Source: Lucinisca nassula (taxonomy: Eukaryota; Mollusca; Bivalvia; Lucinida; Lucinidae). Taken from it: DNA of 64,000 nucleotides. The position numbers were made by a program, and so were the translations under genes. This document shows, one piece after another, positions 11,532 to 38,500 of this stretch. The stretch lies in assembly GCA_963580285.1 (NCBI GenBank), contig OY757024.1:119908045-119972044 (forward strand). The letters are read 5' to 3'. The notes below the pieces were generated by a model. It did no database searches. It was given only the letters and a program-made list of their open reading frames with translations, and was not told the DNA's origin. Each line of letters starts with the position of its first letter. Position 1 is the stretch's first letter.

Positions 11532-14500
11532 CTAGAAAGGCCCCTGCCAGACCACCACTAAAATGTCTTTTTCAGATAACTTAGAAAATATTAAATTCTA
11601 TGGGTCATGGTATGTGGAGCAAATACAATTCTATGGGTACTTGGCATAAAAAAATATCTAAATCTATAGGTAATTGGTCTCTGAAGAAATCAAATTCTAT
11701 AAGTGGTGGGGTGAAAAAAAAAGTGCCGTCTTCCCCCCCCCCCCCCATATCGTTTTTTCTGGAATAGCCCTAATTTAATTCAGCAGGAAAAGCATTAAAT
11801 AGTCATTTTAAACAGAATATAGGAGGAAAAATGAAGCTCTATGAATCCTGCAAATGCTTGAAAAGTATGAGGCCTGATATTTATAAGATTCAAGCTGTTC
11901 TTTCTTTATGTTTGCTATGCTCTGGGTCATAGGGAATGAGACCACCTTTGGGACTGTTCAAAAGTGGTCTTAAAGACCAGTCCCAAAGATGGTCTTAATA
12001 TATGAATTTTACTATACCTTGTCCATTTTTTCATGTCCAAAGGTGTAGTAGATGAGATGAGGTGTTCCAGCATAGGATGCTGCCATCCACTGTATCAGGG
12101 ATTTCAAGTGTGGGTTACCGCCAAATGCACCACATCCCCAGTTACCCGTGGCTATCGGACGACCATACTGCCTCTGGAAATAAATCAATAAGCTAGATCA
12201 GGTAATGTCAGGGCACTAATTGCAGAGATAAATCAAAGCACTGATAGAGCTGGTGGTTTTTGTTTGTTTGTATTGGAGTTTAACGGCCCAGTCAACACTA
12301 TTTAGGTCATTTTTGAGCCGGTCAGTTTACCTATCCACACTTTCCTGGGCAGGCTTATACGTAAGTGGTTAACCAGTACAGTGCACATTCTTTTGCCAGA
12401 AACTGTCAACTGCCCTTCTTGAATCAGCGGAAGGGATAGAATGACCATAGACAAGAGGGCCCAGAGGGCCCTGAATCGCTCACCTGAGAATCAGTGTCTC
12501 TAGTACATTCTTGGCCCAAGGGCTATACTAGGTGAAGCTTCATACCAAATATCAAAGACCTGAGCCTTGTGGTTTCAGAGATGAAGATTTTTAAATATTT
12601 TCCATATATAAGCCTATGAAAAACCAAAGGGCCCCAGGGATGGGGGCATTTTTGGCCCCAGGGCTATAATTTGAACAATCTTGGTACAGGTCCACTAGAT
12701 GAAGCTTCACACCAAATATCAAAGATCTGAGCCTTGCAGTTTCAGAGAAGAAGATTTTCAAAGATTTTACCTATATAAGCCTTTGTAAACCCTGAGGCCC
12801 CCAGGGCGGGGGCATTTCCGGCCCAAGGATCATAATTTGAACAATCTTGGTAGAGGTCCACTAGATATACCAAATATCGAAGACCTGGGCCTTTTGGTTT
12901 CAGAGAAGAAGATTTTTAAAGATGCCAATGTAAAAACCAAAGGCCCCCTGGGCGGGGGCATTTTTGGCCCTGGGGCTATGATTTGAACAATCTTGGTAGA
13001 GGTCCACTAGGTGAAGCTTCACACCAAATATCAAAGACCTCGGCCTTGCGGTTTCAGAGTAGAATATTTTAAAGATTTTCCCTATATAAGCCTATGTAAA
13101 ACGAAAGGCCCCCGGGGCGGGTGCATTTTTGGCCCTAGGGCTATAATTCAAACAATCTTGGTAGAGGTCCACTAGGTGAAGCTTCCCACCAAATATCAAA
13201 GACCTGGGCCTTGTGGTTTCAGAGAAGAAGATTTTTAAAGATTTTACCTATATTAGCCTTTGTAAACCCTGAGGCCCCCAGGGCGGGGGAATTTCCGGCC
13301 CAAGGATCATAATTTGAAAAATCTTGGTAGAGGTCCACTAGATAAAGCTTTATACCAAATATCGAAGACCTGGGCCTTTTGGTTTCAGAGAAGAAGATTT
13401 TTAAAGATTTTCCCTGTATAAGCCTATGTAAAAACCAAAGGCCCCCGGGGCGGGGGCATTTTTGGCCCTGGGGCTATAATTTGAACAATCTTGGTAGAGG
13501 TCCACTAGGTGAAGCTTCACACCAAATATCAAAGACCTCGGCCTTGCGGTTTCAGAGTAGAAGTTTTTAAAGATTTTCCCTATATAAGCCTATGTAAAAC
13601 GAAAGGCCCCCGGGGCGGGGGCATTTTTGGCCCTGGGGCTATAATTTGAACAATCTTGGTAGAGGTCCACTAGGTGAAGCTTCACACCAAATATCAAAGA
13701 CCTCGGCCTTGCGGTTTCAGAGTAGAAGTTTTTAAAGATTTTCCCTATATAAGCCTATGTAAAACGAAAGGCCCCCGGGGCGGGTGCATTTTTGGCCCTA
13801 GGGCTATAATTCTAACAATCTTGGTAGAGGTCAACTAGGTGAAGCTTCACACCAAATATCAAAGACCTGGGCCTTGTGGTTTCAGAGAAGAAGATTTTTA
13901 AAGATTTTACCTATATAAGCCTTTGTAAACCCTGAGGCACCCAGGGCGGGGGCATTTCTGGCCCAAGGATCATAATTTGAACAATCTTGGTAGAGGTCCA
14001 CTAGATAAAGCTTTATACCAAATATCGAAGACCTGGGCCTGTTGGTTTCAGAGAAGAAGATTTTTAAAGATTTTCCCTGTATAAGCCTATGTAAAAACCA
14101 AAGGCCCCCGGGGCGGGGGCATTTTTGGCCCTGGGGCTCTAATTCGAACAATCTTGGTAGAGGTCCACTACGTGAAGCTTCACACCAAATATCAAAGACC
14201 TGAGTCTTGTTATGTCAGAGAAGCAGATTTTTAAAGATTTTCCCTATATAAGCCTATGTAAAACCAAAGGCCCCCGGGGCGGAGACATTTTTGGCCCTAG
14301 GGCTATAATTTGAACAATCTTGGTAGAGGTCCACTAGATGAAGCTTCATACCAGATATCAGAGACCTGGGCCTTTCAGTTTCAGAGAAGAAGATTTTTAA
14401 AGATTTTCCCTGTATAAGCCTATGTAAAACCAAAGGCCCTTAGGGCGGTGGCATTTTTGGCCCTAGGGCTATAATTTGAACAATCTTGGTAGAGGTCCAC

Positions 14501-17500
14501 TAGGTGAAGCTTCACACCAAATATCAAAGACCTGAGCCTTGTGGTTTCAGAGAAGAAGATTTTTAAAGATTTTACCTATATAAGCCTTTGTAAACCCTGA
14601 GGCCCCCAGGGCGGGGGCATTTCCGGCCCAAGGATCATAATTTGAACAATCTTGGTAGAGGTCCACTAGATAAAGCTTTATACCAAATATCGAAGACCTG
14701 GGCCTTTTGGTTTCAGAGAAGAAGATTTTTAAAGATTTTCCCTGTATAAGCCTATGTAAAAACCAAAGGCCCCCGGAGCGGGGGCATTTTTGGCCCTGGG
14801 GCTATAATTTGAACAATCTTGGTAGAGGTCCACTACGTGAAGCTTCACACCAAATATCAAAGACCTGAGCCTTGTGATGTCAGAGAAGCAGATTTTTAAA
14901 GATTTTCCCTATATAAGCCTATGTAAAACCAAAGGCCCCCGGGGCGGGAACATTTTTGGCCCTTGGGCTATAATTTGAACAATCTTGGTAGAGGTCCCAT
15001 AGATGAAGCTTCATACCAAATATCAGAGACCTGGGCCTTTCGGTTTCAGAGAAGAAGATTTTTAAAGATTTTCCCTGTATAAGCCTATGTCAAACCAAAG
15101 GCCCTTAGGGCGGGGGCATTTTTGGCCCTAGGGCTTTAATTTGAACAATTTTGGTAGAGGTCCACTAGGTGAAGCCGCACACCAAATATCAAAGAACTGG
15201 GCCTTGTGGTTTCAGAGAAGAAGATTTTTAAAGATTTTCCCTATATAAGCCTATGTAAACACAAAGGCCCCCGGGGCGGGGGCATTTCTGGCCCAAGGGC
15301 CATAATTTGAACAATCTTGGTAGAGGTCCACTAGATGAAGCTTCATACCAAATATCAAAGACCTGGGCCTTTTGGTATCAGAGAAGAAGATTTTTAAAGT
15401 TTTCATTTCAAAAATCTATTTTTAGCTCCTGTGACCCAGATGTGCAATGGACCGGAACCATTTGAACAACTTTGAAAGGGGACCACCTAAGGATCATTCC
15501 TGTGAAGTTTGGTCAAAATCCGATCAGTGGTTTAGGAGGAGATGTCATTTGAAGAAAAAGTTTACGCACACACACACGCACGCACGCACACACGCACACA
15601 CGCACGCACGACGGACGACGGACAAAAAGTGATCCCAAAAGCTCACCTCGTCACTACGTGACAGGTGAGCTAAAAAGATTTCATGATCAATCTCCACAAA
15701 AGAATGTTGCCGTCCCCGGTGGGAGTCGAACCCGCGTCCTTGATTGTTGCCTAATGTAGGCTGCAAAAACTGTCCTAAACGAGGACTTAAGGGGAATGGG
15801 AACACCTGGTAGATTTTGCCACCATTTTTTCAATGGAGACAACTTTTACGGACTTCCTGTTCGCTTTACTTTAAACTCTGTTCCCCTGACAAAGGGGTCT
15901 GCACTTAAAGGAAGGAATTTGCTCCTCAGGAGCAAATTCTTTCCTTTAGGAGTTGACCACTATTGACATGGGAGACAAAAATACTTTTGCAGGAGTTGCT
16001 TCCCATGAAGATGTTCCCATTCTCCTTAAGACTGTTTTGTTTAACCCTTAAATTCCTGTACTGTAAGTGAAATGTATACCCTATTAGATGCCACATTCTG
16101 CGGCATCTGATCTGGGTCTACAGTTTGCCAAACCAACACATGATTCCAGTCCAGGTTCTACAGGTAACCCTCTTACCCAACACTCTGACCAATAAGAATA
16201 GCTTGGCTGCAGTATTTTCTATAAATAACCCTTAACTGGAAGTCATTGATAGTCATATGGACTTCAACAGTGAAAAGCTACTGCGCTTTATAACTTTGGG
16301 TCGGCTGAAAATCATACCAATAATGAAAGTTCAGGTTCAGTTGTTCAAAGCATCATTAACCCATTGTATGCTAGTGGACCCTTCCATTCCTGTATGTTGG
16401 ACAAGTCCATTTGTCATATAAGGGGTGTCAGACCTTTTTTATGTTTTCATTCTATATTCGACAGAAAATTCTGTTAGCAAAAGTGCAGGCCCTGATCAGA
16501 CATCGCGTTCTGCGGCATCTGATCTGGACCTGCACTGTTTGCCAGGGTACCCATTTTGGGGTTTCTGGTACAAAAATGAGGTAACTTAATACTTGTTAGT
16601 AGTCAAAATGTTAACTGTCCTAGTGAGTACAGTATCCAATAAGCTTGTTTTTTCACTGAAAATATTGTGAGCAGCTTTAACCCTTTTTGTACCAAATGGA
16701 ATCTTCCACCTTGTATAGAGGAGTCCATTAAAAAATTAGGGGTGTCAGGTTGCGTTTTCTTCAAAAACTATTTGAAAATTGGCTGAAACTTTTACAAACA
16801 GTGCAGGCCCTGATCAGATGCCGTGTTCTGCGGCGTCTGATCTGGACCTGCACTGTTTGCCAGGGTACCCATTTTGAGATTTCTGATGCCAAATGGTTTA
16901 ACCCTTGTTCTGCTGAGCCCGGATATGCCTTTTCTTTGAAACAATGTAGATCCAGATCAGATGGCTTCTGAAGAAGCCATCTGATCAGGATCTACATTGT
17001 TTGCCATTCAGATTGTGAATTTGTTACAATAATTTGCATCAAGTAATCGGATTGGTTGATAATCGGTAGTGGGTGTGGCATATATGAATATTCAGCAGGA
17101 CAAGTTTGTTAGGCTGAATGATGCTTCCACGCAGAGCTGAAACCGTCCACACACTAGTACTGGTAAACCGCTTAGAGGATCTGAGCTTGTCCAGGAACCC
17201 CGGTGCGAGGCAGACTGTCCATGCTTATAAACCCTATTAGTTTCATTAGGCGACAGGGCTTCAGATGTCATTTAATCTCAATGTCGGGTAAAGTCCCACA
17301 AAATTGGAAGCAATGTCTCCAAAATGACCTATACTGTGTTGACGGGGATGTTAAACCGCAAATCAAATAAACAAACAATTGTTAGTAGTCAAAATGTTAA
17401 CTGTCCAAGTGAGTACAGTATCGAATAAGCTTGTATTTTCACTGAAAATATTGTGAGCAGCTCTAGTATTTACAAGTACAGTAAAATTGCACTATTAAGA

Positions 17501-20500
17501 CCAGCTAAAATTAAGTCTAAATCTGCTTGACGGTTTCAGTTATTCTTTCTTTGTGTTTTCTACAGCCAGTGTCTCCTAGTCAGAGACCACCATTGGGACT
17601 GTTCAAAAGTGGTCTTTAAGACCACTTCTGAACAGTCCCAAAGGTGGTCTTAATATAGGAATTTTACTGTATCATGGGTTCATCTATGAAACAGACTTCA
17701 AAATCACTGGACATTGAAATTTAGGTCAAATGAAAGTATATACATGTATACTGTGAAAGCAATCTGGGTAAAACATGCAACCAATATCCTACATACAGTC
17801 ACCCTTCTTCAAAGTAAAGCCGGCCTCGGTAGCTCAGTCGGATGAACATCTGACTGGTGATCAGGAGGACGCAGGTTCGAAACCTGCCGGGGTCGGCAAC
17901 ATTCTTTTGTGGAGATTGATCATGAAATCTTTTCTACACAGACACACAAACGGAAAGACAAAAGCTATATACCCCAAAGGTATACTATGTATGCCTGGGG
18001 TATAAAAATTAATTAAATGGGCATAACTCAGAAACTAAGAAAAGGGGAACAATCATTCTTGTGTGCTAGACTCCTTTCTCCAATACATATTCCTATAACG
18101 TTGCATGAAGATATCCTTAATGGTTACTGAGTTATGGAGCATACAAGAATGTTTACGGATGGATGGACGGATGGTTAGAACCATGCCATAATACGACCCA
18201 TTTTTTTAAACAACATATGAGACAGTGCAAGACAAAACCTACAATAAGACACGTGCACCCAATGAAGACTCAAATCAGCCTGCGCATCTGCGCAGTCTGA
18301 TCAGTCTTGGGTGTGAGCTCTAAGGATAGCTAAGGGCCCAAATGCTCCTTCATGCAACAAGAGACTTCTCTGCTTAGACTATATGGATGCACAGGCTGAT
18401 CTGATTCTTTGCTGGGCACACATCTTATTGCAGGTTGAGTCATGCACTGGCTCATATAATCAATTGACCTACCCTCAGCTGACTCTCCTGTTCTCGTTTC
18501 AGTACTGACACTGAAGTAACCATCACTCTACTTGCAATTGATTCAGCAAAAGCCTCAAGTCTCTGATACGGTAGATCTAGGGCATCCTCATACTCCAGTG
18601 AACTCATGGTACCATCTGTTCCTCTGTCATTCAAACTACCTTGACCCTCAGAATCCAAATAGTCTGAGTCTGAAGTTTCTGATTCATCATTACTATATTC
18701 AAGACATTCAGTTTCTTCACCCCATGTGACCATTTTATTCTGTTCCAGCCAATCAGAACACACCATTCTATTCTCTGCCTCAATCATTGCTGTTTTCAGA
18801 ATGCTGGTTGCCAGCTTGCTGCTATAATCATTCAGATTGGTACAGCGGCTGGCTCTCGGCCTTCTAGACCTTGCATTGTTATTCACATTCAAACTGACTG
18901 GGAAATCTTCTCTAAATGCAACAGTGACAGCTTCACACAAAATTCTTGTAGACAATCTATCTGCATAGTCAGAAACTTCTGTGTTCCCTTTCAATGAATC
19001 AGACTTAACTGAAAACCATGATACTGCAGAAAACTCGCTGTCAAATGATGCTCCAACATAGCGGCTTGGAAATTTAATACTGCTGAAATTATTATCTGAG
19101 CTGTCATTCCAACTCTGTCTCGGGTGGCATACTTGTCCTTTTCTATTAGACCAGGAAGACTGGGTGCGTGCTGAGGACTTCCCGTAACTAGAATTAAGAA
19201 GTTCATCCTCAAAACTTGCCAACACTGGGTCTCTGAAAGAACTGACAGTACTGCACACTGACTTACTAGATTCACTTGTACTGACACAACCATTAAATAC
19301 TTGGAATGTAGGGACAGACACGTTTGCCTTCATCAGCTCCTCAGCAAATCTGCAATTCACACACACAAAAAACATTATTGACAGTGGACTACATAGAGGA
19401 TCTTACATGAGTGCTCATGTATTATTGAATTTATTAAACGAGTTGAGGAAAAGGGATAAAATGCGAAGCTTGCCAAGCATTTTTTTCCTTTTCCTCAACA
19501 AGTTTAATAAATTCAATAATACACGAGCACGAATGCAAGATTCTATTTATCAAATGACATTTAAAACGCATTATATATTTGATTGTTTACAAAAAATATC
19601 AATATTCCGCCATTAGTAAACGCGACGTCATTAAGGACGCCGTACATGAAACTTTGCGGGACATATCTAGTAATTTGCATATTTAATCCACTAGTGGATT
19701 ATCAAAAATATTACATGGCATTATTACACTCTCAGACGCGACGTCATATGATAAATGTAGATATAGAGGGTCTCATATTTGTTGTCATTTCATATGAAAT
19801 TAATGAAACAAGCCTTTGGTGAGAAAAACTGATGTATTTTATAGGAGGATTTGTTTGTTTGAAATTAAACGCCCCCAACAACACTATTTAGGTTATTTTG
19901 TAGACGTTGCTTCCAATTTTGTGGGACTTTTACCCAACACTGAGATGAAATGACCTCTCAATACCTGCCACCCAATGAAACCAATAGGGTTTATATGCGT
20001 GGATGGTCTGACTCTCACCACTTTGTCTGGCCAAGCATACACCTTCTAAGCGGTTGGTTTCACCTCTGCGTGGAAGCATCATGCAGCCCAATCTATTTCT
20101 CGAAGCCCCGATGGGCAGGGGTCAGAATATTTTAGGAGGAGATAGCCAGAAACAAAACAATAACCGAAATTTTCAACGGGACATAATAAATATTCTGCTA
20201 ATATTTGGTGGACTGTAACCTAGAAACAATATGCACTGCCCCACATCATGGTGTAACTATATCTCCAGTTTCTGCTTGACTGAATGTTAATTGTAGGAGT
20301 AGTTAGCCAGAAAACAAAGGTTCACAGAAATATTTTAAGAGGCAGCATTCAGTTAATATTTGGTGGACCCCGACCTTGAAATAATATGCACTGCTTCACA
20401 TCATGGTCTAACTATATATCAAGTTTCAGCTTGATCAGATCTAAATTGTAGGAGGACTTAGCCGGAAACTAAATGTTTATGGAAAATTTCAAAGGGGCAT

Positions 20501-23500
20501 AACTCTATAAATATTTGGTGGACCATAACCTCAACAGTATTTGCTGCGTCACATCATGGTCTAACTTTATATCAAGTTTCAGCTTGATTGGATGAGTTAT
20601 CCGAAAATGAAAAGTTTAAAGATAGATGGACAGACACTTGGACGCGGAGGGGCATAACACAGTACGACCTTTTTTTCAAAAGGGCGTATAAAAAGGAAGC
20701 CTTTTTTCATAATCCCCACATTTTTCAAGTAGTAATGAGGTTATGTATTAAACACAGAATATCTTTGGATCCTCCATTTATATAATAAGAACTTGCCATG
20801 TACGTACAGAGGGAAACCTTTGATTAATCATGACAAACTATGATTTTTACATACCCCCACAGAAGAGGGGCTATCCAAATATGATTTTTTTCTTATTTTC
20901 TGCATGAAAGCATATGTTGTGGGCACTCATCAGAAGCACCTCACCAAGGAGTACCCACATCATAAATTTTCGTGCAGAAATATAGAAAAATATCTAAAGT
21001 CAAACTTCAATAGCTCGAACACCTTTAGGACAATGAAAATCTGTTCGAGACAGGGGTAGTTCGAGCCACTGAGGGTTATTATTAGGAGGCATAACGAGAT
21101 ACTTTTAGACATCTTTCTGGTGTTCTATAATGAAAATGTATGCGGTGTGTACTCATTAGAATCGCCTCATTGAGGCGATTCTAATGAGTACACACAGCAT
21201 ACATTTGCAAGATAAAAGAGTAAAATCTCCTTAATTATCCCCACTATTTCTTATGTAGAGGATTTGCCTAGGGGCTCAAGAATGGGTTCGACACATCCAT
21301 GGTAAATGAGCCATCGGTGTTTGAGCCATCGAAGTTCTACTGTACTTTTTGGATGAAAAAAGCACCTTATAGCTATGTATGTAATCATAGGTCATAGAGC
21401 AAATTGATTAATCAGCAAATCACAAGGTTTTACTTCTTCCTAGGAGCTGACATTTTTTCAACTCACCTTGATAAAATAGGATCTCTAAACCCGCTACCAC
21501 TTTTCCTGTGTCTAACTTCACAGCTGGCTCCATGACGAGACAGTTCCTCGGCAAACTTGCCAATATCTTCATCTGTTTTGCTCCACTGAGTTCTCCTCCC
21601 ATTCACCGTGGGAGTAGAGTGTTGGAGTCTCTGCAGAGCTGCACCATTAGATATCTGCATCGGTTCACTGCTACGACGAGGAAAACTAAACATATCTTCA
21701 TCTCCAGTGTCTTGCACTTTTAGAAATACATTTGTTAACAAATCTCGCGATAGACAATTTGCAAACTGATCATAATTTTTCTTACTCCTATGAGAGTCTG
21801 CAGGAGAACTAAACCGTTTATGATCTGTGTCTGAGGTCTGCGAACCTCTTCTATTTTTACCCTGTGAAGAACTATTGCTTTTTGATCCCATTTTTTTTAA
21901 TTTCCTGGATACTGATTTGGCAGATCGTGGTGATGAGTTGCTGGACATGATGTGTACAGGGGAAATATTAATACTGTCTCTTTTTGGACTCTGGCATACA
22001 TTGGTTGATCTTTCACTCAGTGAATTACTGTTAGGTGATTTTGAAAGATTGCTTCTAACTGACTGACGTCTTGGACTAGAATTTTCCTTATTATGCTCAT
22101 CACTTTCAATATCACATGCTAGTTGACTATGTGGTACAGAAACAAGAGGACTAGAAATGTGACTCTCTAAGTCTATCACTCCTTCTACTACACCTTCTGT
22201 AATACTGTCTGTATTGTCAACAGTTTCTATAAACTTAGTACTATTTCCTGGAGGCAACATTTGTATTGCTTCATATGAAATTTCTATAGGAATAATCTCA
22301 ATATTATCAGCCTTAGGTACAGACTCTCCTTCCCCACTCTTGTATACAACCTCTGTCATATCACCAATATCCCGGCTTCCTGTATCACGTAAATTATCAC
22401 TAGTTATAATATTTATATCACAATGTGCTTGTAGTGGAACGGTTGAAGAAATTATCTGTGGCGCCTTAGGTCTGGCCCCAGGGTCAGGGATGGAATCATA
22501 TATCTCAAACATTACTTCATCTGCTACATCTGTTGCAGATACATTAATATTAAAATCACTATTTCCAACTGCACCAAGATCAATATCACCTAGGCTTGAA
22601 CTTGAAGACAGTCTAGAACGACAGTAGTACCTACTGTCACTGTAAGAATATCTTTGCTTATACTCAATTAAAGCTTCAGTAAAAGCCTTAACTATAAGAT
22701 TATTAGCAATATTAATCAAAACATTATCATCATCATCATTATTCACATCAGGCTCGTTATCAACACTAGTCCTATCAGAATCAGAATCTATACTTTCACT
22801 GTCATCCTGCTCCACTGTCACATAAACATCTTCAAGGTGATTATTAAACTTATATCTGCTGAGATGAACTAAAACAGCTCTTAATTCTTTCTGGGTGTTG
22901 GTCCAAGCTCTTGTCTCTGAGATCTGGAATGGCCAAATCTGGGAAAAAAGATTATCTATAAAACTCCTAACAACGTTTTCATCAATACATATATCTTCCC
23001 TTTCAGTTTCAGATGAGTTTCTACAATGGTGATCATCATCATCATCTGTTTTATGTGTTCTTCTAGGTTTTACTGGTGACGGCTTTGCAAGCACAGCAGA
23101 TGGCTGTATATTATGGAATTTCTGAACACCGGACACCGTCCTAGTGGAACTGTAAGCCTCAACACCTTCCCTTAGTAAGCTTTGTGCCAAATTTAGAGCA
23201 AACTCATTGACAACGGAAGGACCAACCTCTTCTTTGATAGTGTGGTATTTATATTTCTCCTGTTGTTGAAAGTTATCATAATACTCCTCAAATTCTGAAC
23301 TAAATTCTGAGCTGTATTTGGTGCTACAGCCGCTACTTCTTCTTGATGATGGGAGATCATAACTACTTCTACGCGAGCTCAGGTCACTCAAGTTTGAACT
23401 CCTTCTTCTATAGTGAGCTAACCAGTCTCTGAAATTCACCTCCAAATGGTCCATTGGAATTTCATTATCTGCTGACATTGCCGAGCCTAGGGAGGCTGAA

Positions 23501-26500
23501 ACAGAGCCAACAGAAGCTGAAGATTTACTCAATGATGAATCTTGAGTATCCGATGATGATGAATGGTCAAATTTACGTCTTTTGGTCAGTTTAAGAACAG
23601 CTTCAAACAAGGCCATTTCAACAGCATTTGACACCAAGTTGTCTGCATAAACCACCACAGAAAAAGGAACATCTGAAATACATGAAAAATTTTGGCCGTT
23701 ATGTCCCATATGTGAGAAGTGTCAAGCAAAAAATTACCATCAGATTGATTGATTGATTGATTGCTTGCTTGGGGTTAAGTAACCTTATCCATGTATACAC
23801 TTCAACATCAACTTTAATCCTTTGTCTTTTCCCTTTTTTGGTTTTGGCTTTACTGCCCTTTCAGTATCAATTCACTTATTTCACTGATTGTTAATCAGAT
23901 GTGTGCGAAAACACAAGTACCCAGAGAAAAACACCTGATCTCCCACTACCACAGTGATAAAGAGACAGCATTCTTGCCACAAAGGTTCACACTATAAATC
24001 CTAGTGGGTAAACAATGACGAGGTCAATGTTAAGATAATGTTTATTTCTCTAATAAGATATGAAAGTCCATTTTATATGAGAAATCCCAAAATGGGCCAT
24101 TGAGAAACAGCGCAGGCCTAGATCAGATGCTGAATAAGATGGCATCTGATAAATGTCTTCACTGTTTGCAGCAAGATAAACCATTTTTGTATTCAATTTC
24201 TACAAAACCACCGAGCCTGACTCCCTTAATTTGAAATGAGCTTCTGCTGTGTATAAGGGGAAAGGTTCCACTCAGTACAAAATGGGCACCTCAGCACTTT
24301 TCAAAGTGTATTTGGAAAAAAATAATAATTCAGAAGTAACAATTGTTTTAAGAAGGTCAGCCTCATTTACAGTCTTCAGCTTTGACCAACCTGAGCTGCC
24401 AGAACTGCTACTACTCTCATCAGCTGTGTAATATTCTTCCTCTGAGACAGCTTTTGGACATACCACTGGGAACTTCACACAAAATCCTGAAAATATATGC
24501 GAACAACATCATTAGAAAATCTCCAGCTTGTGGACATACAACTGGAAACTTCACAAAAAGCCCTGAAAAAAATAGGAAATCTCCAGCTCAGAGACAGCTT
24601 GTGGACATACCACTGGAAACCTCACACAAAGCCCTGAAAATATATGTGAACAACATCAATAGGAACTCTCGAACTCAGAGGCAGCTTCTGGACATACCAC
24701 TGTAAACTTCACAAACAATCCTAAAAACAACAGGACTTTAAGTCCATATTCTTTCTTACCTGTGAATGCTTTGATGAGATCTCGTAGGATGAAATGATCC
24801 GTGTATTATTCCATACCCTGACCATGACTGTAGGAGACAGCATCAATAGAATTCTTTCTTACCTGTGAATACTTTGGTGAGATCTCGTAGAATGAGAAGA
24901 TCCATGTATTGTTCCATACCCATATCATGAATGTTGGAGACAGCATCAATAGAATTCTTTCTTACCTGTGAATACTTTGTTGAGATCTTGTAGGATGAAA
25001 TGATCCATGTATTGTTCCATACCCGACCATGACTGTAGGATACAGCATCAATAGAATTCTTACGTACATCAACCATAGTGCAGTTTATATTTTACTTTTG
25101 GTCCTTTGAGATCAGCGTGAATATTCTTAGAAATCGGAAATAAATTATTGGTTTAGACTCATATTCTAAACAGGTTTTTAATTATTTGGACTCCATTTTG
25201 ATTCATATCAGTCTTTGAATCGACTGCCTATTCGAAATTCGCAAAATTGCAATTTTTTCCTCTGGCTTTCTTTGCCAGATCATTACAGGGTCACTGATGA
25301 GGCTTTATTAGCCGAAACTACGTAGTATGACCCATCTTCTTTCTTATGAATGTTTTCATTGCTCTTAAAGGAACTCATTTTTGATTTTTATTTACCTGTG
25401 AATGAAGATGATGATTTCGTGTTTAACGACGCAGCAACCCTCTTTGTGGGTCATAAGCGTCAAGTGGTTAATGATCAAATGGTATCTTACGTGTGAATGC
25501 TTTGTTGAGATCTCGTATGATGAAATGATCCATGTATTGTTCCCTACCCCTACCATGACTGTAGGAGACAGCATCAACAGAATTCTTTCTTACCTGTGAA
25601 TGCTTTGTTACTAGTAGGATGAAATTATCCGTGTATTGTTCCCTACCCCTACCATGACTGTAGGAGACAGCATCAATAGAATTCTTTCTTACCTGTGAAT
25701 GCTTTGTTACTAGTAGGATGAAATTATCCGTGTATTGTTCCCTACCCCTACCATGACTGTAGGAGACAGCATCAATAGAATTCTTTCTTACCTGTGAATG
25801 CTTTGTTGAGATCTCGTAGAATGAAATGATTCGTGTATTGTTCCCTACCCCTACCATGACTGTAGGATACAGCATCAATAGAATTCTTTCTTACCTATGA
25901 ATGCTTTGTTGAGATCTCGTAGGATGAAATGATCCGTGTATTGTTCCCTAACCCGACCATGACTGTAGGAGACAGCATCAATAGCACAAAGCATCTTCTT
26001 TAAGTTGCCATCGCTGTCAACCTGGAAAATATAACCTGAATAAACAATGCCAAACTTTAACCCAATGTATGCTAGTGGACTCTTCCCTTGCTATATGTTG
26101 GACAAGTCCATTTGTCATATAAGGGGTTTCAGGCCTATTTTAATTTTAAGTTTTTATTCTATTTTTGACGGGAAAGTCTGTTAGCAAATAGTGCAGGCCC
26201 AGATCAGACGCCGCTTTCTGAGGTGTCTGATCTGGGCCTAAACTGTTTGCCAAGGTACCCCTTTAGGGGTTTCCCGCATACAATGGGTTAAAGGGGTTAA
26301 TCCACTACTTAAGGGGAGCTGCTACACATTGCATTACTCTCTGCCAATCGGACAAGGTAAACAACTTCCGGAATGTCAGGCTACCAGTTCTCTGAAATGA
26401 GACACTCACCCAAAAGGTGTCCACTCTTAAAGGAAAGAATTTGCTCCTTGGTTTTCAAGCTATAGAAGGTAGTTCCCTATATACTTTTCAGCCCTACTAT

Positions 26501-29500
26501 TTATTCTAAAGTCAATCATATTTAACCCTTTTTTACAAGCGTCTGTAGTGTAGTGGTTAAGCTACTCGCCTTGTATACCAGGGGTCGCAGGATCGATCCC
26601 GGGCTTCTCCAGACTTTGAGATGAGTCTTTAAACCAAGGTCCCATCTCAGTATGATCTTAGCTGTTGGTGAGACGTAAAACTCAAACACTCACAGATTTA
26701 ACCCTTTTTGTACCAAATTGAATCATCCTCCTTATATATAGCAGGAGTCCATTTAGAGGTGTAAGGTTGTGTTTTCATCAAAATTTATTTGGAAAATGAC
26801 TGAACTTTTAGCAAACAGTGGTAGCCCTGATCAGACACAGCATTCTGCAGCATCTGACCTGGGCCTGCACTCTTTGCCGGGGTACCCATTTTGGGGTTTC
26901 TGGTTTTTGTTTGATTTGAGGTTTAATGTCCCCGTCAACACTGTAAAGGTCATTTTGGAGGCGTTGCTTCCAATTTTGTGGGAATTTTACCCGACATTGA
27001 GATGAAATGACATCTCAAGCCCTGTCGCCCAATGAAACCAATAGGGTTTATTAGCATGGACGGCAAGCCTCGCACCGCGGTTCCTTGACAGGCGTAGATC
27101 CTCTAAGCGGTTTACAAGTACTAGTGTGCGGCCCGGATTCAGCTCTGCATGGAAGCATCGTGCAGCCCATATATTTTTTCAAGCCCCTATGGGTGGGGGC
27201 TGATTGGGGTTTCTGGTACAAAATGGGTTGATACAACCAATTATGTGAATTTTAGCAATTCAAATTGTTTGACTTCAATTAGGTCTGCCTTAATATAAAC
27301 TATCTGAAACTTTAAAATTAACATTTCTAGCATCAAGTTAAAACAAAACTGGCTTAGATCGAAAAATCAGTATCTTGCGGCTTTATACTGATAGATGTGA
27401 TACCTGTATGTCATCTCTGAAGTCACCAGCAAACTGTAGGGCTGATGCATAGCCTACTGTAGCTGAGAACTGTTCATAACCTTTTATCACTATGGCCTCA
27501 TTGTCATCCATAACTTCCATGAACAGCATTGAAACTATAAGCTCGGGGCATACTGTGAATCGTATCTCTTCCTGAAATTACAGATACATGTACAATCACC
27601 ACACATTCCATGTTACTACTGGGCCCAATTGTTCAAAGCATCGCTAGCTTAACAAGCTCATTAGTGGTAAAAATGTTAACTGTTCAAGTAAGTACATTAT
27701 CCATTAAATGGGCATTTTTGCTGCAAAAATATGAGAAGCTTTTGCATTTGCAAAAGCTACTCACATTTTTTCAGCAAAAATATTAGCCTATTGGCCATAT
27801 TTAATGATTGATCAAAGTTTTTAACGATTTTTTAACTAGCATTATTGCTAGTTTTGAACAACTGGCCCTTGACAACCACAGCTGTTTTTTTTTTTTTCGG
27901 ATTTAGTTGTATGACCCTTTCTAGATTATTTCACTTATATTGAGCCAATAGATAATCAGAGGTGGGAGAAAACCAGGGTACCCAGAGAAAAACCACCTGA
28001 CCTTCCATTGCAGAACATGGTGTCTCACATGCGACCTGTGCCAGGCTTGAACCACAGCGCTGAGAGACTGAATGATTAAGAGTCAGCACTCTTATCCACT
28101 AGGCCACAGAGGCCCCACAGCTTGGTGTTACGAGCAAAGCATAGCAGAAAGGAAAAGAACAGGAAAACCAGCAATAAGCTTTAACTATTACCCTGCTGAA
28201 TAAATTAATTTAGCCAGACCCGGCCAACTAGCAACCAATCAAATTACTTGTCAATGATTCAATGTATTCATTCAATTCACATACACCAAGACAAAAAGTG
28301 TAGATCCTGATCAGATGGTTTCTTGAAGAAGCCATCTGATCTGGTCTACACTGTTTGCAAAGGTAGGGGTTCTCATGTTCAGCAGGATAATGGCTGAAAT
28401 ATTTAACAAGATTTATTTGCAACATGTTAAAGTTACTTTGCTGATATTGAAGATTAAGAAATAAACAAATACTTCTTAGTTCTGCCCCCAAATATCCTTA
28501 ATTTAAGTTTTGATGTCTGATCCACATAGTATTAGCACTGAAATGAATAATAAATCCTATAGTAATTCAACACAGAATTAAGAATGAAATTTTCTCAGAA
28601 CTCTCAAACTGAAGCTATCAGAAAAATATTTCTCCTTTAATATATAGATTCATGGAAGGTACTGGAACATGCTTGATAATGAATTTGCTACTACCTTCCA
28701 GGTAAAGGATTTATGAGGACTTAAGGGGAATGGGTACACCTTCAGGGGAGGCAACTTCTGCAAGTGTTTTTTTTCCCATAGCAATAGGGGCTCAACTCTT
28801 AAAGGAAAGAATTTGTTCCTGTGGAGCAAATTCGTTCCTTTAAGAGCAGACCTCTTTTTCGGTGGGGCTGATCCTGCAGAAAAGTGATCAGGAAGTCCTG
28901 AAAGTTGTCTCCCTTTGAAAAATGGCGGAAAAATGTGCTAGGTGTTCCCATTCACCTTAAATCTGTTCATAATCCAAAAATAATATGGGCACACCATATT
29001 TACCTTATCTTGCAGAAACCATCTGATCTGGATCTACACTGTTTGCAATGCAGTTTTTGAATTGAATGAATATATTATTTAAAGTCATTTGATTGGTTAA
29101 TAGAAAGAAATGGGTGTGGTTAAATAAATTTATTCAGCAGGATAAGGGTATAGCAAGAAAGAAATGTATCCTAAATTTTACATCTGGAAATTGGCAGTTT
29201 AGCAGAGCTGCCACTGGGTCTTTGTAAACTGAAGTCCTGGGGCCAGTTGTTCAAAACTAACAACGTCATTAGACTTTGATCATTGAATATGGCAAATATG
29301 CTGAAATTTTTGCTGAAAAAAATGTGAGCAGCTTTTGCAGACGCAAAAGCTGCTCACATTTTTTCAGCAAAAATACCAAAATTTTAAATATTAAACTTGC
29401 TAGAAGACTTAACAATATGACCACTAACGAGCTCGTTAAGCTAACGATGCTTTGAACAACTGGCCCCAGGTTGGTTGTTTGATTTGAGGTTTAACGTCCC

Positions 29501-32500
29501 CGTCAACACTGTAAAGGTCATTTTGGAGACGTTGCTTCCAATTTTGTGGGACTTTTACCCGACATTGAGATGAAATGACATCTCAAGCCCTGTCGCCCAA
29601 TGAAACCAATTGGGTTTATAAGCATGGACGGTCCACCTCGCACCGAGGTTCCCGGACAGGCTTAGATCCTCTAAGCGGTTTACCAGTACTAGTGTGCGGG
29701 CAAGATTCAGCTCTGCGTGGAAGCATCATGCAGCCCATATATTTCTACAAGCCCCTATGGGCGGGGGCCTTACTGGCCCCAGGACTCCATCCTTGTGAAA
29801 AGGTGGAGATCCCGTTAAAAAGACATAGAGCCCAACCTAAGGAAGTTGGAGTCCTGAATTTGATCACACATAATAGTCATACATAATTATTCCACACCAC
29901 TATTGACTGACTCACACACATTTATGTCCTTTTGTTAAGTTTTTGATGCAAGAAAATAACATCGTCTGATGTCAAAGAATTTATGAGTGAGTCATGGCAT
30001 CATAAAATAGTGGCTTTTCATGACATCAATCAAAACGCTCTTCCACCCACTGATTTATTGCAAATGTAATCACTGTACTTTTCCTTTGTCATACAGTAAA
30101 ATTCTTTTAGTAAGACCACCTTTGGGACTGTTCAAAAGTGGTCTTGAAGACCACTTTTGAATAGTCCCGAAAGTGGTCTCTTCCTAGAGGACACAGGGTG
30201 TAAAACACACAAAGAAAGAATAACTGAAATGTTTAAAGTAAGATTTTTGTGAAGAATTAGTCTTAATTTTAGGCGGTTTTAATAGCGGAATTTTACTGTA
30301 TATGCTGGCTGTGTAAGGAATTTTAGCATAATAACAGTAACTGAGGCTGTAATGTTTTGAGCTGTAATGATTCTGACTATTGGGACAGACAGGCCTAAGC
30401 AAACAATCCAGTCACAGATCAGACTGCTTCTGAAGAAACTGCTTCATAGTTTGCAATTCTGTCTTGCATCTTTTGGGCTCCTTGCTGGATCGTGAACCTA
30501 ATTTGTTAATAATTTAGGAGCATTACAGCAATTCCTCAAGCAGGCCGAATTTTTAAGAATTTAAGGGGAATGAGAACACCTAGCACATTTTTCCGCCATT
30601 TTTCAAAGGGAGATAACTTTCAGGACTTCCTGTTAGCTTTTCTATAAGCCACTGAAAAAGGTGTCAACTCTTAAAGGTAAGAATTTGCTCCTGAATTTGC
30701 TCCTGAGGAGCAAATTCTTTCCTTTAAGAGTTGACCACTATTGAAATGGAAGACAAAAATACTTTTGCAGGAGTTGCCTCCCCTGAAGGTGTTTCCATTC
30801 CCCTTAACAGCAGCTACAATAAAAGTCTACTGAATAGGAGGAATAACAAAGATAATGAAGGCATAATTTTTGAAAAATATGTTGTGGGTACTTGATAAGA
30901 AATGCCTCAATGTGGGGATTGTTACAATTATCCACAACATTATCCTACTGAACATGACAACCCTGCTTTTGCAAACAATGTACATCCTGATCAGATGGCT
31001 TCTTGTTTAGTCAGCAATAGGGAAAGAATCCAAATATGTCTTCCATTTCAGCTATTTTAATTCTTGTTTGTTTGTTTGAGTTGAGGTTTAACATCCCCGT
31101 CAACACTGTAAAGGTCATTTTGGAGACATTGCTTCCAATTTTGTGGGACTTTTACTGGACATCGAGATGAAATGACATCTCAAGCCCTGTCGCCCAAGGA
31201 AATCAATAGGGTTTATAAGCATGGACGGGCCGACATGCACCGCTTTGCCTGCGCAGGCTTAGATCCTCTAAGCGGTTCACCAGTACTCGTGTGCGGGTCG
31301 GTTTCAGCTCTGCATGGAAGCATCATGCAGCCCATATATTTCTTCAAGCCCCCGTGGGTGGGGGCCGGTTTTATTTCTTGTATAGTGGTAACAATTATGT
31401 GAGGATCAGTAATTACCTGTACTCTTCCACGTGCCAGAGTTCCTCCACCAATATAACGATTAGCAAAGTCTACCTGCAATATTATAATATTATTAATCAA
31501 GTATATTTTGTATTGGCCCAGTTACAGGTCTGAGGTCTGCTGTATTGGCCCGAGGCCAAAGGCCGAGGCCAATACAGCTGACCATGGACCTGTAACTTGG
31601 CCAATATGAAATTACTTGAATAATGACAATTTTATTAATTGACACAGTTAAAAACATGATTATTGTTATTTGACCTACTGTTAATACAGATGACCTCCGT
31701 TCAATACAAGATAGTCAATTAATAATGTAGCATATAATGTCATTATTCCAATACAATTACAATATTAACCCTTATCTCAATCCATTACACTATTAACCCT
31801 TATCCTGCTGCATAATTAACTTAGCCACACCCATTTCTGACTTTGAACCAATCAGATTACTTGATGTAATTTATTGCTGCAAATTCACAAACTGAATGTC
31901 AAACAGTGTAGATGCTGATCAGATGGCTTCTTCAGAAGCCATCTGATCTGGATCTACACTGTTTGCAAAGGTTGGAGTTGTAGTGAACAGCAGGATAAGG
32001 GTAAAATAAGAATCCATCCTGAGACTATGTCATGCTTATCACGGCCAAATCTGACTTACAGTTTGAGAGATGGACTTGAACTCTAGCGTCCAAGCTATGC
32101 TTGATGCAAATGTTGTCGGCTAGAAAAACAAACACATGAATGAACAAAAGAAATGGCTAAAGTCCAGGGGTCAGTTGTTCAAAGCATTGTTATGTTAGCT
32201 TGTTAGTGCTCAAAACGTTAACTGTTCTAGTAAGTACAATATCTAATACTCTTTTTATTTTGTTTTTTGCAGCAAAAATGTGAGCAGCTTTTGCAAATGC
32301 AAAAGCTGCTCACATTTTTTCAGCAAAAATACTAGCAAATTAATAGCAATGTTAGTTTCGAACAACTGGGCCTCGATCCCTATATTACACCATGCTAGAA
32401 GCAGGGTGACAACAGAGTACTATCATCATCATCATCTTTCTGATCATAATCATCATCATCATCATCATCATCAGATTTTTTATTAAACATGCAGGGACAA

Positions 32501-35500
32501 CATCCACATAAGTGGGACCACTTCCAGGTAGGTGGCTTGCTGCACGCATGGCAGATCTCACACCAGATCTCCAGGTATGTTTATCATGGGGGTGAATAGC
32601 CAAGAGCTTCCACTCTCTGCAGTCTCTTTCTGTCAGATGCTTCCAGGTCATCTTGGGCCTCCAAGGTCCACGTTTTCCATCCACCTGTATGTCAAAGGCT
32701 GTCTTGACTGCACCCTTGGAGCATTCCACATGTCCATACCAGCAAAACAAGTGTACCATATTTATCAACAAGAGCACCGCAAGCGGGTGCCAACGCTCGT
32801 CTGCAGTTTCTTTTAGAAAACAAAAGTTCTAAGTCAAATCAAATTGCAAGATGGAGTTATAAAACTTGTAAAGATTGTAGCTCTTGTGATGGTGAGTATG
32901 TGTATGAAGTTTCATGATGGTAGGCCAAATACTTTTGGAAATATGGTCAAGGTTAAGTTTTTTGGTTAATTTTTCGAAAAATAGGTCAAAGTTCAAAGGT
33001 CAAGGTCACAGGTCAAAAAGCGTGGTATGACTGAAAAGGTCTTGTCCCAAGGAACATTCATGTGAAGTTGGAAGGCTCTGTTGTGAATAGTATTGAAATA
33101 AGAGACAAAAACAATTAAAAAAAAACGGAGAGAAAAGGGGAGATAATTCAATCAAATTGCAAGATGGAGTTATAAAACTTGTAGGGAATGTAGCTCTTGT
33201 GATGGTGAGTAGGTGTATGAAGTTTCATGAAGGTAGGCCAAATACTTTTGGAAATATGGTCAAGGTTAAGGTTTTCGGTTAAATTTTCGAAAAATAGGTC
33301 AAAGTTCAAAGGTCAAGGTCACAGATCAAAAAGTGTGGTATCACTGAAAAGGTCTTGTCCCAAGGAACATTCATGTGAAGTTTGAAGGCTCTGTTGTGAA
33401 TAGTATTAAAATGAGAGCAAAAAATGTGTTTCAGAAAAAAATTGGAAAAGGGGAGATAATTCAGCCAAAATCAACAATGTTGTTATGGTCCTTGGTCAAA
33501 ATGTAGCTCTTGTGATGATGAGTGTGTGTATGAAGTTTCATGAGGCTAGGTCTAATACTTTTTAAGTTATAGCCAAGGTTAAGTTTTTTTGGAACGACGC
33601 AGGACGACACAGGACGACGCAGGACGACTACGCAGACGCCGGAGTGATGACAATAGCTCGAAAGTTTTTTTTCAAAAAACAGACGAGCTAAAAATTTTTT
33701 TTAAAAAACAGACGAGCTAAAAATAAGTATTTGGACATACAGCCTGTGCAAACGGTGCTCTTCCATTGCTATATGTATGACAAGTCCATTTGTCTGTTAG
33801 GGGTGTCACGCCTATTTTTTCATTTTTATTCTATTTTTGACGGAAAATTCTGTTAGCAAATAGTGCCGGACCAGATCAGACGCTGAGTTCTGCAGCATCT
33901 GATCTGGGCCTGCACTGTTTGCCAAGGTACTCCTTTAGGGGTTTCCCGCATACAATGGGTTAAGCTGATTTTACAGAAATGAGACAGATACAGTGTGTAG
34001 AGGCAGCATATCTCTCCTAATGTTTAAACCATTGTATATTGTTGGACTCTTCAATTGTTAGATATCGGACACATCATTTTGTCATTTAAGTTGTGTCGGG
34101 TCTGTTTTTGTTTTGTTCTTATGAAAAGTCCTATTAGCAAATACATGTAGTGCAGACCTTGATCAGATGCTATAATATGCAGTATTTGATATGGGTCTGC
34201 ACAATTTTCCCAAGTCCCTTTCCATGGGTTTCCAGGTAAGAATGGACTAAGGTAATTATAAAATTCAAAAATACTGTTAGAACCCACAACCCTGTTATAA
34301 CACTGTTCATTATAATATAGCTTTGGATATAACACAGTTTATCTCATTGTATACTAGTGGACTCTTCCATTCCTATATGTTGGACAAGTCCAGTTGTTAT
34401 ATTAGGGGCGGTAGGCCAATTTTTTGGTTTTTATCCTATTTTTGAAGAAAATTCTGTTAGCAAATAGTGCAGGCCCTGATCAGAGCCCGCATTCTGCGGT
34501 GTCTGATCAGGGCTTGGACTATTTGCCAAGATACCCCTTTAGTGGTTTCCCGCATACAATGGGATAAGGCTATGTTGTGGATTGTTCCTTATATCTCCAT
34601 ATAACCCTATGCTGTGGTTGTTCATGAGAACTGCCTTGGTGAGGCAGTCCTGATGAATACCCACAACATAACTGAGAAAAATTGCCCTCCAACTATCACC
34701 AAATGCTCATCCCATCTGTTTCTACGAAATCTAATCACAATCTCACCTCAATGGTACCACTGCTAGCCTCCTCTATACTTCCATCTGTGTGCACTGTAAC
34801 AGGGCATAGGTCCAAGGTACAGTCTAGCCATGTGTCTAATGATGGAATCTCTTCTAGCTTCAACACCTGTTATTACATAGATTTCTTCATTATACACCAC
34901 AACCTCATTATAACACTGTTCGTTATAACAGGATTTTGGTTATAACACTGTTTCAAGATGGATCCCAAAAATGTATAGATTATATAGAAAATCACAAATT
35001 GTCCTTTTTCTATATAATCTATACATTTTTAAAATGATCATAAATGGTCATTTTACTAAATAATCTAATAATCTATACATTTTTGTTTGGATATACCACG
35101 GTTGTTTAACTAACACAGTTTCTGATTTGGAACCCATTAATAGTGTTATAAATAGGTTATGGTGTATAAGAGGATCTTTAATACACGAGAGTTTCATAGA
35201 TTTCATATGAAATGACCATGAGTGTAAGATTCTGTTTATCATATAACGATTTTTAATCAGATTTTATCACTGAAGAAGTTCAAAAGAGTTGTCATGGACT
35301 GGTCATGAAGCTATGGACAAGTAACTAGGTGTTATTACATGTGTGGTCATATGATATGATTTTTATGAAATGACGTTATCTACCAAAGCAAAGTGCAGAC
35401 ACAGATCAGGCTGCTCCTATAGGAGCAATGTGATCAAGGTCTACAATTTTTGCCATTCTTTGTTGACTCCTTGCTGGATCTTGAAACAAATTTGTCCAAA

Positions 35501-38500
35501 TTTTAGGAGAATTACAGCAAGTACATAATAATGTATCCAAACTTTTACGGTAATAAACTGTTTTAACCCTTATCTTGCTGTTCATGACAACCCCTATCTT
35601 TGCAAACAGTGTAGATCCAGATCTGATGGCTTCTGAAGAAGTCTTATCTTGCTGTTCACGACAACCCCTATCTTTGCAAACAGTGTAGATCCAGATCAGA
35701 TGGCTTCTGAAGAAGCCATCTGATCAGGATCTTCACTGTTTGGCATTCAGTTTATAAATTTGTAGCAATAAATTACATCAAGTAATTTGATTGGTTAATA
35801 GATAGAAATGGGTGTAGCTTAAATGAATATTCAGCAAGATAAGGGTTAATACCTATAGCACAAGTACAGTGAAAGTTTGTTACTAAGACAAGCCAAATGA
35901 AGACTAATTCTGCTTTGGAAAGCATATTCAAAAAGTTTCATTTATTCCTTCTTTATGTTTTCTGGACCAAGTGTACTCTGGTAAGAGACCAACTTTGGTC
36001 CTATTAAAAAGAGATCTTTAAGACCACCATTCATCTGAAACAAGGTTGTACTTTAAGGGTTTCCGGTACAAAATGGGTAAATGAGACTCGATGTTGATGC
36101 CACTTTTAATAGCATGTGTCCCCTATGTCTAGACAGTTTGTTTGCTTAGAGTTTAACAGCCTGGTCAACACTATTTAGGTCACATCCAGCAGGGTAGTTT
36201 ACGGTAAATTACCTAACAATGTTTTTCCAGGACAGACTTATGCATAAGTGGTTAACCAGTACAGAACACATTCTTTTGCCACAAACTTACAACAGTCCAT
36301 CTTAAATCAGCATAAGGAAGAGAATGTAAGAAGAATATAAGAATCTTATATTGGTGTGAGGGGTGGATAGAAAAATTCGTCCCGAGGGTCACTGTCCGGC
36401 ATCACTTGGCTTGCCGAGTGATGCCGGACAGTGATCCCGAGGGATGGATTTTTCTATCCACCCCTCACACCAATATAGATTCTTTTTCTTACATACCTTC
36501 CATTTCTATTGCGAATTTTTAATGCTGCTGTCACTTCGGTTACCCACGTCCGCCATTTTGTGATGACACAACAGGAATGTTTAGTGACATCACGCATGAC
36601 GACGCCGCGCATGAGGTTGCAAACACGCGATTATATTCGATTTGGGGTCGGAACACCAGGGTCAGAACATAAATTTCTGTCCCAGGGTAAAATCACGGAT
36701 TTCCTTGTCTGGTGTGCAAGAAAGATTTCATGATCAGTCTCCACGAAATGTTGTTGACCCTGCAGGTATCAAACCTGTGACCTGCTGATCACCCGTCAGA
36801 CACGCGTCCAACTGAGCTACCGAGGCCAGTGAAGTCTAGATAAAGGGGAGTTAGGATGACAAAGGTATATTTTTTCTTCTGTAAAAAACCTGTGTTGAAG
36901 TTACTTGTTAGAATCGCCTCAATGAGGTTATTCTAACAAGTACCCACAACATTCTTTTTCCAGAGAAATAAACAGAGGATCTTATATGAGTCTATTATTG
37001 AATTAATTAAACAAGCTGCCAAAAAGGGATAAAATGCGAGGCTTTGCCGGGCATTTTATCCCTTTTCCTCAGAGTTTAAACCTCAAGTGGATTATCCAAT
37101 TTATTACATGGCATTATTCCATTCTCAGATGCGACGTCATATAATAAAGAAAATTGTACCATGATTATCCTTGTTACTTATCCTTATCTGGAGATACAAG
37201 GATCAATACAGTAAAATTCCTATATTAAGACCACCTTTGGGACTGTTCAAAAGTGGTCTTTAAGACCACTTTTGAACAGTCCCAAAGGTGGTCTTCAGAC
37301 CACTTTTTGAACAGTCCCAAAGGTGGTCTCTGACCAGAGGACACTGCATGCAGAAAATTCGAAGAGAGAATTACTACAGTCTACTAAATAAGCTTCTAAG
37401 ATCAGATTTAGTCTTAATTTTAGGAGGTCTTAATAGCAGAATTTTACTGTATAGTGATGTCACTTTTTAACAGATGGTGTGAACTGTTCCAGCCCATAGT
37501 CTGTAGAGAAAATCTGCCAGCACAACGAACACAAAACAAAGGTAGGAAAGAGAATATTTGGCTTTACAGCTGTTTCTGAAACCATCTACCGGTCTCATGA
37601 TGCAATACAGTAAAATTCCTATATTAAGACCACCTTTGGAACTGTTCAAAATTGGACAGTCCCAAAGGTGGTCTCTGACCAGAGGACACTGTATATAGAA
37701 AAGACAAAGAGAGAATAACCGCAACTGAGTAAATAAGCTTCTAAAAGCAGATTCAGTCTTAATTTTAGGTGGTATTAACCCATTTAGTACCAGAAACCCC
37801 CAAACGGGTACCCTGGCAAACATTGCAGGCCAAGATCAGACGCCGCATAACGCGGCGTCTGATCAGGGCCTGCACTGTTTGCAAAAAGTTCAGCCACTTT
37901 CTGAACAAATTTTGACAAAACACCACTTGACACCCCTAAATTTTGAAATGGACTCCTGCTATATATAAGAAGGAAGATTCTATTTAGTACAAAAAGGGTT
38001 AATAGTGGAATTTTACTTTTAACAGAAAGTGCAAATTGTTCCAGCCCATAGTTTATAAAGAAAATTTGCCAGCACACCAATCACAAAACAAACTTTATTT
38101 CGTAGGAAAGAAAATATTTGGTTCTACAGCTGTTTCTGAAACCACCTACCTGTCTCATGAAAACTACAGAACCTGTCAATCTGTCCCATTCTGGCGATAC
38201 TCGGTCAAAGAAGTTGAGAATACATTGAAGCTTGGCATTCTGGGAAGGGCTAAAAATATCAAATACACAATAACCTCTTTAATACCACAGTTTTTCGATA
38301 TATATTTAATACAGTTTAAAGATGGATCTCAGAAATATATATAGATTATATTGTTTGTCTAAGTTATTCAGATGCTGTGGAATGCCTGGCAAGTCCAGTA
38401 CTCTAAATTATTAACTTAATGTTTAACTGCCATCAAAAAACATGTGATAAAATATTGCGACAAAGTCTTCGAAAGATCAGGTAGAAATATGATAAAATTT

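Follow-up and report, generated by a model that had tools for sequence, protein, structure and literature searches.

Does a single gene of the bivalve Lucinisca nassula encode a poly(ADP-ribose)-removing enzyme, PARG, whose catalytic macrodomain is interrupted by about a thousand residues, and what is the interrupting segment? The question arises in a 64,000 nt stretch of contig OY757024.1 (assembly GCA_963580285.1, positions 119,908,045 to 119,972,044), hereafter the window. One gene does encode such a PARG, and the same architecture occurs in molluscs, nemerteans, and a lancelet; we refer to the protein as insert-PARG. Taken as a whole, the explanation that we favor, with a probability of about 0.72, is a single-gene split PARG with a tether insert, ancestral to the vertebrate A-kinase anchoring proteins (AKAPs) AKAP11, SPHKAP, AKAP4, and AKAP3.

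The gene lies on the minus strand, with 12 exons inside the window and one approximately 2.4 kb outside it (Table 1). It encodes a protein of approximately 1,520 residues, and its nearest clam homologs (P0123–P0128) comprise 1,485–1,618 residues. The 11 exons designated A–K join into a stop-free frame of 1,435 residues, in which all borders carry AG/GT sites and the phases are compatible. The macrodomain is split by 1,061 residues, which follow LNKAFIGF and end just before the ATGNWGCG loop. All five exons around this site (G–K) lie where a preliminary description of this DNA had placed them, with the same splice sites and with phases of 1-1, 1-1, 2-2, and 0-0 at the G/H, H/I, I/J, and J/K borders. 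Among the eight subsets of exons H, I, and J by which G could be connected to K, only I plus J and H plus I plus J maintain the frame. An insert-free transcript from G to K, which the preliminary description had named as evidence that would speak against it, has no in-frame route through the known exons.

The same exons could in principle belong to two genes, with a separate AKAP-like gene nested inside a PARG intron, both on one strand, so that the apparent fusion would be a reading error. The AKAP-like and PARG coding parts are separated by kilobase introns, exon I lies within a 752-residue stop-to-stop frame of its own, and the joined exons of L. nassula are known from genomic sequence alone. 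However, the phases match across all borders, no splice that omits both I and J stays in frame, and many species have the joined protein. A search with the insert and the tail retrieved 32 proteins, of which 24 (one a partial record) possess 831–2,011 residues at the same loop; these carriers include bivalves, two gastropods, a chiton, two nemerteans, and a lancelet. The other eight comprise six unparsed proteins (P0129, P0132, P0143, P0145, P0147, and P0150) and two nematode PARGs with a 10-residue loop. Two homolog contigs barely exceed their open reading frames (ORFs), which fill 4,566 of 4,649 nt and 3,990 of 4,385 nt, while two more are 1.3 and 1.7 times the ORF length. Since the gene contains kilobase introns, contigs of nearly ORF length suggest a complementary DNA source; they carry the source label lgn, which we take to denote assembled sequencing reads. 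Homologous proteins that combine PARG with the insert, the kind of evidence that the preliminary description had asked for, exist and include ORFs nearly filling their contigs. Furthermore, the order of J, K, and the last exon recurs in a second genomic copy, where the three fit within 8 kb. The nested arrangement was rejected on the basis of the phases, the homologs, and the transcript-sized contigs, and we regard it as very improbable.

The region is also rich in tandem repeats and contains a retroelement, features that might accompany an assembly error or a recent accident private to this lineage. Against this stands the same insertion site in all the animal groups listed above, a recurrence which argues that the architecture is not due to chance. 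In addition, the second copy is located on another contig (C427, locus L008), where exon J differs from that in the window at 18 of 877 nt and contains no stop; this copy is perhaps the other haplotype. Misassembly and a recent accident were accordingly rejected on the species distribution and the second copy, and they receive next to no weight. The central claim of the preliminary description, a PARG catalytic domain split by an insert of about 1,060 residues, is thus upheld by the open frame, the PARG domain scores given below, and the recurrence across species.

That description had also stated that the interrupted loop is short in known PARGs. Insert-free PARGs were represented by 120 listed proteins of 835 found, and 75 of these were parsed; their loops measure 10–80 residues in 61 plant-named rows and 9–119 residues in the 14 others. 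The insert lengths lie far beyond this range, whereas loops of up to 119 residues qualify the word short. A tree of the catalytic part, built from 34 rows after seven were dropped in which a motif was not located, set eight ordinary PARGs, including those of insects and a nematode, apart from the insert-PARGs and plants at a support of 100/99. The insert-free proteins P0003–P0006 were placed among or next to the insert-PARGs, and the insert label takes three changes on this tree. Given this placement, a single gain of the insert is possible.

The PARG part was analyzed with the insert left out. It scored 252.8 bits for PARG_cat_C (PF05028) and 83.2 bits for PARG_cat_N (PF20811), and thus both the helical domain and the macrodomain are present in one protein. 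The GGG-x-QEE catalytic motif is intact, and exon K is matched by the PARGs in the PDB at an E value of 2.7e-11. The alignment to solved PARGs runs through GGG-x-QEE, the LNKA stretch, and the ATGNWGCG region. The GGG, QEE, and GNWGCG columns do not vary among the 14 insert-PARG rows of an alignment of 17 proteins (alignment A1). GGG-x-QEE is present in 23 of the 24 parsed homologs and missing from one partial record. Judging from these residues, the insert-PARG is apparently an intact poly(ADP-ribose)-removing enzyme. Alternatively, the protein may act primarily as a scaffold whose macrodomain binds poly(ADP-ribose) without cleaving it. An insert of 1,061 residues next to the ATGNWGCG loop could impair catalysis, and the L. 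nassula genome (2.93 Gb) encodes an ordinary insert-free PARG as well, on contig C2, which could supply the enzymatic work. A non-catalytic domain would nevertheless be free to lose GGG-x-QEE, as the AKAPs did, and the retention of the motif in nearly every homolog argues for an enzyme. We consider such a loss of catalysis unlikely. A search with exon K against viral contigs gave three pattern matches, none of which was confirmed.

The insert carries recurrent short motifs, which were counted in 24 inserts, namely that of the window and those of 23 homologs. A core of the phosphorylated FFAT (two phenylalanines in an acidic tract) type, which is predicted to bind VAP, occurs within the first 70 insert residues in 23 of the 24, where 0.28 would be expected on the basis of the remaining windows in these inserts; the strict phospho-FFAT pattern occurs in 17 inserts (0.05 expected). 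A second FFAT-like motif was detected in 19 of the 24, as counted from the printed rows. Its sequence in the window, EYYDNFQ, has counterparts in the lancelet (EYFDAME) and in AKAP11 (EFFDSFD). An AKAP-type helix pattern was observed 113 times in the inserts, as compared with 0.8 in shuffled sequences and none in 64,527 residues of insert-free PARGs. It appears seven, three, and two times in one AKAP11, one SPHKAP, and one AKAP4, respectively (0.07 or less expected), and seven times in the insert of the window, for which shuffled sequences predict 0.02. The helix and second FFAT-like patterns were devised after the window and the AKAPs had been seen, which limits the independence of these counts. 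Sites of the protein kinase A (PKA) type, R[RK]x[ST], number 178 in the inserts versus 34.6 expected. Exon H, which bears the phospho-FFAT-type core, is frame-neutral, and its skipping could therefore remove the VAP docking. Two Mya arenaria models (P0129 and P0132) illustrate this possibility, as the equivalent of exon H is skipped in them and the motif is not in frame. The conservation of the phospho-FFAT motif and the link to AKAP11, SPHKAP, and AKAP4 are additions to the preliminary description.

A previous report (PMC11377751, Nat Commun 2024) describes PARG homology and a predicted PARG fold in the C-termini of AKAP3, AKAP4, SPHKAP, and AKAP11, states that the N-terminal portion seems to be lost in these proteins, and proposes that the vertebrate tails bind poly(ADP-ribose) without cleaving it. 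The main text of that report contains no words starting with invertebrate, mollus, ancestor, or insertion, and our searches of the open-licence PMC literature retrieved none that deals with an invertebrate PARG bearing an insert. Using human AKAP tails, we found 1,140 proteins, of which 120 rows, many of them nearly identical, were listed; sorted by motif, these are 56 AKAP11, 39 SPHKAP, 5 AKAP4, and 20 unsorted rows. The inclusion of AKAP3 here is based on PMC11377751. A profile built from 22 insert-PARG tails matched the C-terminal 140 residues of each of the 120 listed rows with a median of 42 bits and left all 240 decoys, reversed or shuffled, unmatched, while an insert-free PARG tail profile matched the same 120 rows with a median of 33 bits; since the rows had been selected by their tails, the evidence resides in the scores and not in the counts. 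The profile–profile comparison of the tails (hhalign) gave 99.2% with an E value of 2e-19, as compared with 0.3% for the reversed profile. When a four-row AKAP tail profile was searched against the PDB, PARG chains occupied ranks 1 to 11 among the 14 hits (E 0.0016–0.0042), followed by an integrin (0.0093). In a Pfam scan of five AKAPs, a SPHKAP model from sturgeon, whose tail occurs as three repeats, exceeded the PARG cut-off, and AKAP4 was matched weakly by PARG_cat_C, at an E value of 0.038. In the tail tree, the AKAPs, the insert-PARGs, and P0003–P0006 are grouped apart from ordinary and plant PARGs (89/88).

A candidate for the N half of the macrodomain was detected at the opposite end of the AKAPs. 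The profile comparison that included the FFAT stretch gave 95.6% with an E value of 1.3e-8, and in five of the six scans run along the AKAPs the top rank went to the N-terminal window. The phospho-FFAT-type motif of SPHKAP is located soon after the sequence EINKFLIGL, and in AKAP11 the second FFAT motif is present. In PMC3261905, EFFDSFD of AKAP220 (AKAP11) is reported to target VAP moderately in yeast, and DFLTASE, there named AKAP110, to do so weakly; our analysis located DFLTASE in SPHKAP. For mammalian SPHKAP, PMC10460453 reports that the phospho-FFAT motif is required for VAP association and that the protein clusters type I PKA.

Several results weigh against the favored explanation, among them the patterns devised with the sequences in view. 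The preliminary description had called the insert AKAP-like, a term that the helix motifs bear out. Of the curated AKAP models, none exceeded its cut-off in the window insert: SmAKAP reached 19.8 bits in the exon J frame, where the cut-off is 27, and the exon I frame had no match. The N half gave 37% (E 3.5e-4) once the FFAT stretch was removed and 8.0% and 7.8% against AKAP11 and AKAP4 alone, and a plain hidden Markov model (HMM) reached 9–11 bits at best, exceeding the decoys at a non-significant level. In the sixth scan, of AKAP11 with the FFAT stretch, an overlapping window outranked the N-terminal one. The middle of the insert, compared as a profile with AKAP11 and SPHKAP, yielded best E values of 0.003–0.01 that did not exceed the reversed controls, one of which scored higher. 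The other three AKAPs in the Pfam scan showed no PARG match, the support of 89/88 in the tail tree, whose branches are long, falls short of the usual bar, and an AlphaFold model of AKAP4 from a 22-row alignment had a mean predicted local distance difference test score of 30.2 and was not used for a fold search. Among related searches, SmAKAP was matched at an E threshold of 1 in seven of the 17 proteins in alignment A1 (best 1.5e-4), and PF05716 (AKAP_110) in none of them. PF05716 likewise had no match at that threshold in the L. nassula genome, where the control was also without a match. An HMM of the block around the second FFAT motif was unconvincing (best AKAP11, 9.5 bits; best decoy, 5.5 bits).

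These observations leave room for the view that vertebrate AKAP11, SPHKAP, and AKAP4 are not descendants and that they gained a PARG tail and an FFAT motif independently. The unalignable insert middles and the weakness of the N half without the FFAT stretch are consistent with it, as is the description of the C-terminal half only in PMC11377751. An independent gain does not readily account for the occurrence of a candidate PARG N half and the PARG tail in the same order, with a phospho-FFAT-type motif right after the N half or its candidate in both families, a second FFAT-like motif further along in AKAP11 and the lancelet protein, and helices of the same type. We therefore judge an independent origin to be quite unlikely and prefer descent from a split PARG.

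Table 1. Exons of the insert-PARG gene and motifs in its insert, in window coordinates
Feature	Position	Strand	Basis or remark
First coding exon (29 residues)	49288..49374	-	tblastn of clam homologs and reading of the sequence; donor GTAAGT
Exon A, N-terminal part and start of PARG helical domain	44339..44594	-	
Exon B, helical domain	39898..40039	-	
Exon C, helical domain	38150..38249	-	
Exon D, start of macrodomain (GSIEE)	34747..34866	-	
Exon E, first part of catalytic motif	31417..31473	-	
Exon F, EEIRF..., completes GGG-x-QEE motif	27404..27571	-	
Exon G, ...RDLNKAFI, last exon of macrodomain N half, ends in phase 1	25895..26021	-	
Exon H, 96 nt, frame-neutral (phase 1-1), phospho-FFAT-type motif	24391..24486	-	
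Exon I, 2,206 nt, bulk of the insert with the second FFAT-like motif, helix motifs, and an RRxS cluster	21467..23672	-	
Exon J, 877 nt, remainder of insert, weak SmAKAP match	18473..19349	-	
Exon K, macrodomain C half (ATGNWGCG loop)	12018..12173	-	
Last exon, stop-terminated	about 2.4 kb beyond window edge; match L009 7527-7351	-	
Phospho-FFAT-type core EYYTADE (predicted VAP binding), exon H	24416..24436	-	position counted by hand
Second FFAT-like motif EYYDNFQ, exon I	23266..23286	-	position calculated by hand
AKAP-type helix motif 1 (13 residues), exon I	23611..23649	-	pattern; position calculated by hand
AKAP-type helix motif 2 (13 residues), exon I	23164..23202	-	pattern; position calculated by hand
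AKAP-type helix motif 3 (13 residues), exon I	22672..22710	-	pattern; position calculated by hand
AKAP-type helix motif 4 (13 residues), exon I	21727..21765	-	pattern; position calculated by hand
AKAP-type helix motif 5 (13 residues), exon J	18929..18967	-	pattern; position calculated by hand
AKAP-type helix motif 6 (13 residues), exon J	18788..18826	-	pattern; position calculated by hand
AKAP-type helix motif 7 (13 residues), exon J	18512..18550	-	pattern; position calculated by hand

The introns around the insert exons contain repeats derived in part from the gene itself. The intron after exon G holds tandem arrays of decayed exon G copies of about 100 bp with the donor site (25485-25984 and 24748-25061), and decayed partial copies of the start of exon H lie just upstream of that exon (about 24740-24520, minus strand). 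A 166-bp minisatellite occupies positions 12527-15404 of the intron between J and K, with related arrays at about 57541-60051; the spacing from J to K is about 2.8 kb on contig C427 versus 6.3 kb in the window. Elsewhere in the window, a retroelement without long terminal repeats on the minus strand (2094-5330) shows endonuclease and reverse transcriptase matches, with a PHD finger in the next frame. Three tRNA-Thr(GGT)-like calls, at 17821-17897 (+), 40624-40697 (+), and 44138-44209 (-), are possibly tRNA-derived short repeats. Exon J had a single match in the PDB, at an E value of 0.2, which was taken as chance.

For the insert-PARG itself, we infer PKA binding, VAP binding, and hydrolase activity from the sequence. 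The two halves would fold together into a working macrodomain, from which the insert, probably unstructured for the most part, would hang out as a tether. When phosphorylated, the FFAT-type motif at the start of the insert may dock the protein on VAP at the endoplasmic reticulum (ER), while the helix motifs would anchor the regulatory subunits of PKA, whose local targets could be the RRxS clusters. In such an arrangement, poly(ADP-ribose) removal would be placed at ER contact sites beside PKA and under its control. We consider it likely that the bilaterian ancestor possessed an active PARG with an ER-tethering, PKA-anchoring insert, which was kept in molluscs, nemerteans, and lancelets, and that AKAP11, SPHKAP, AKAP4, and AKAP3 are its dead split forms in vertebrates. 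These AKAPs, as putative descendants, would have kept the scaffold and both flanks and lost the catalytic motifs, and the insert-PARG may be the living form of the ancestor of AKAP11, SPHKAP, and AKAP4. On this account, AKAP C-termini resemble half a PARG because the other half sits at the opposite end, beyond the scaffold.

If this is correct, AKAP11, a risk gene for bipolar disorder and schizophrenia, is a decayed poly(ADP-ribose) enzyme, and its original job was a direct link between PKA, ER contacts, and ADP-ribose. An origin would thereby be offered for an anchoring family of medical relevance, whose members are reported in connection with psychiatric disease (AKAP11), sperm (AKAP3 and AKAP4), and neurons and beta cells (SPHKAP). 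The reading predicts an enzyme in clam or lancelet that combines PKA anchoring, ER contact, and ADP-ribose removal in one chain, and it hints at what the dead domain of AKAP11 may still bind.

Compared with known systems, the insert-PARG shares the helical domain, the macrodomain, and GGG-x-QEE with PARGs that contain PF05028 and PF20811, such as human PARG (PDB 4B1G), in which the macrodomain is uninterrupted. Plant PARGs extend the same loop, mostly to over 50 residues, and none of their 61 parsed rows has an insert of scaffold length. AKAP11 (AKAP220) and SPHKAP resemble the insert-PARG in the PARG-homologous C-terminal tail, the phospho-FFAT-type motif, and the helix motifs; unlike it, they have lost the catalytic motifs in the aligned stretches, and the insert middle is not alignable. 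AKAP4 and AKAP3 (AKAP_110, PF05716) carry the same tail but are shorter. PMC11377751 treats the C-terminal half alone, whereas here a candidate N half is also placed at the AKAP N-terminus. The C-terminal homology was already known; what is new is a living insert-PARG, in the light of which these AKAPs can be understood as split PARGs that have decayed.

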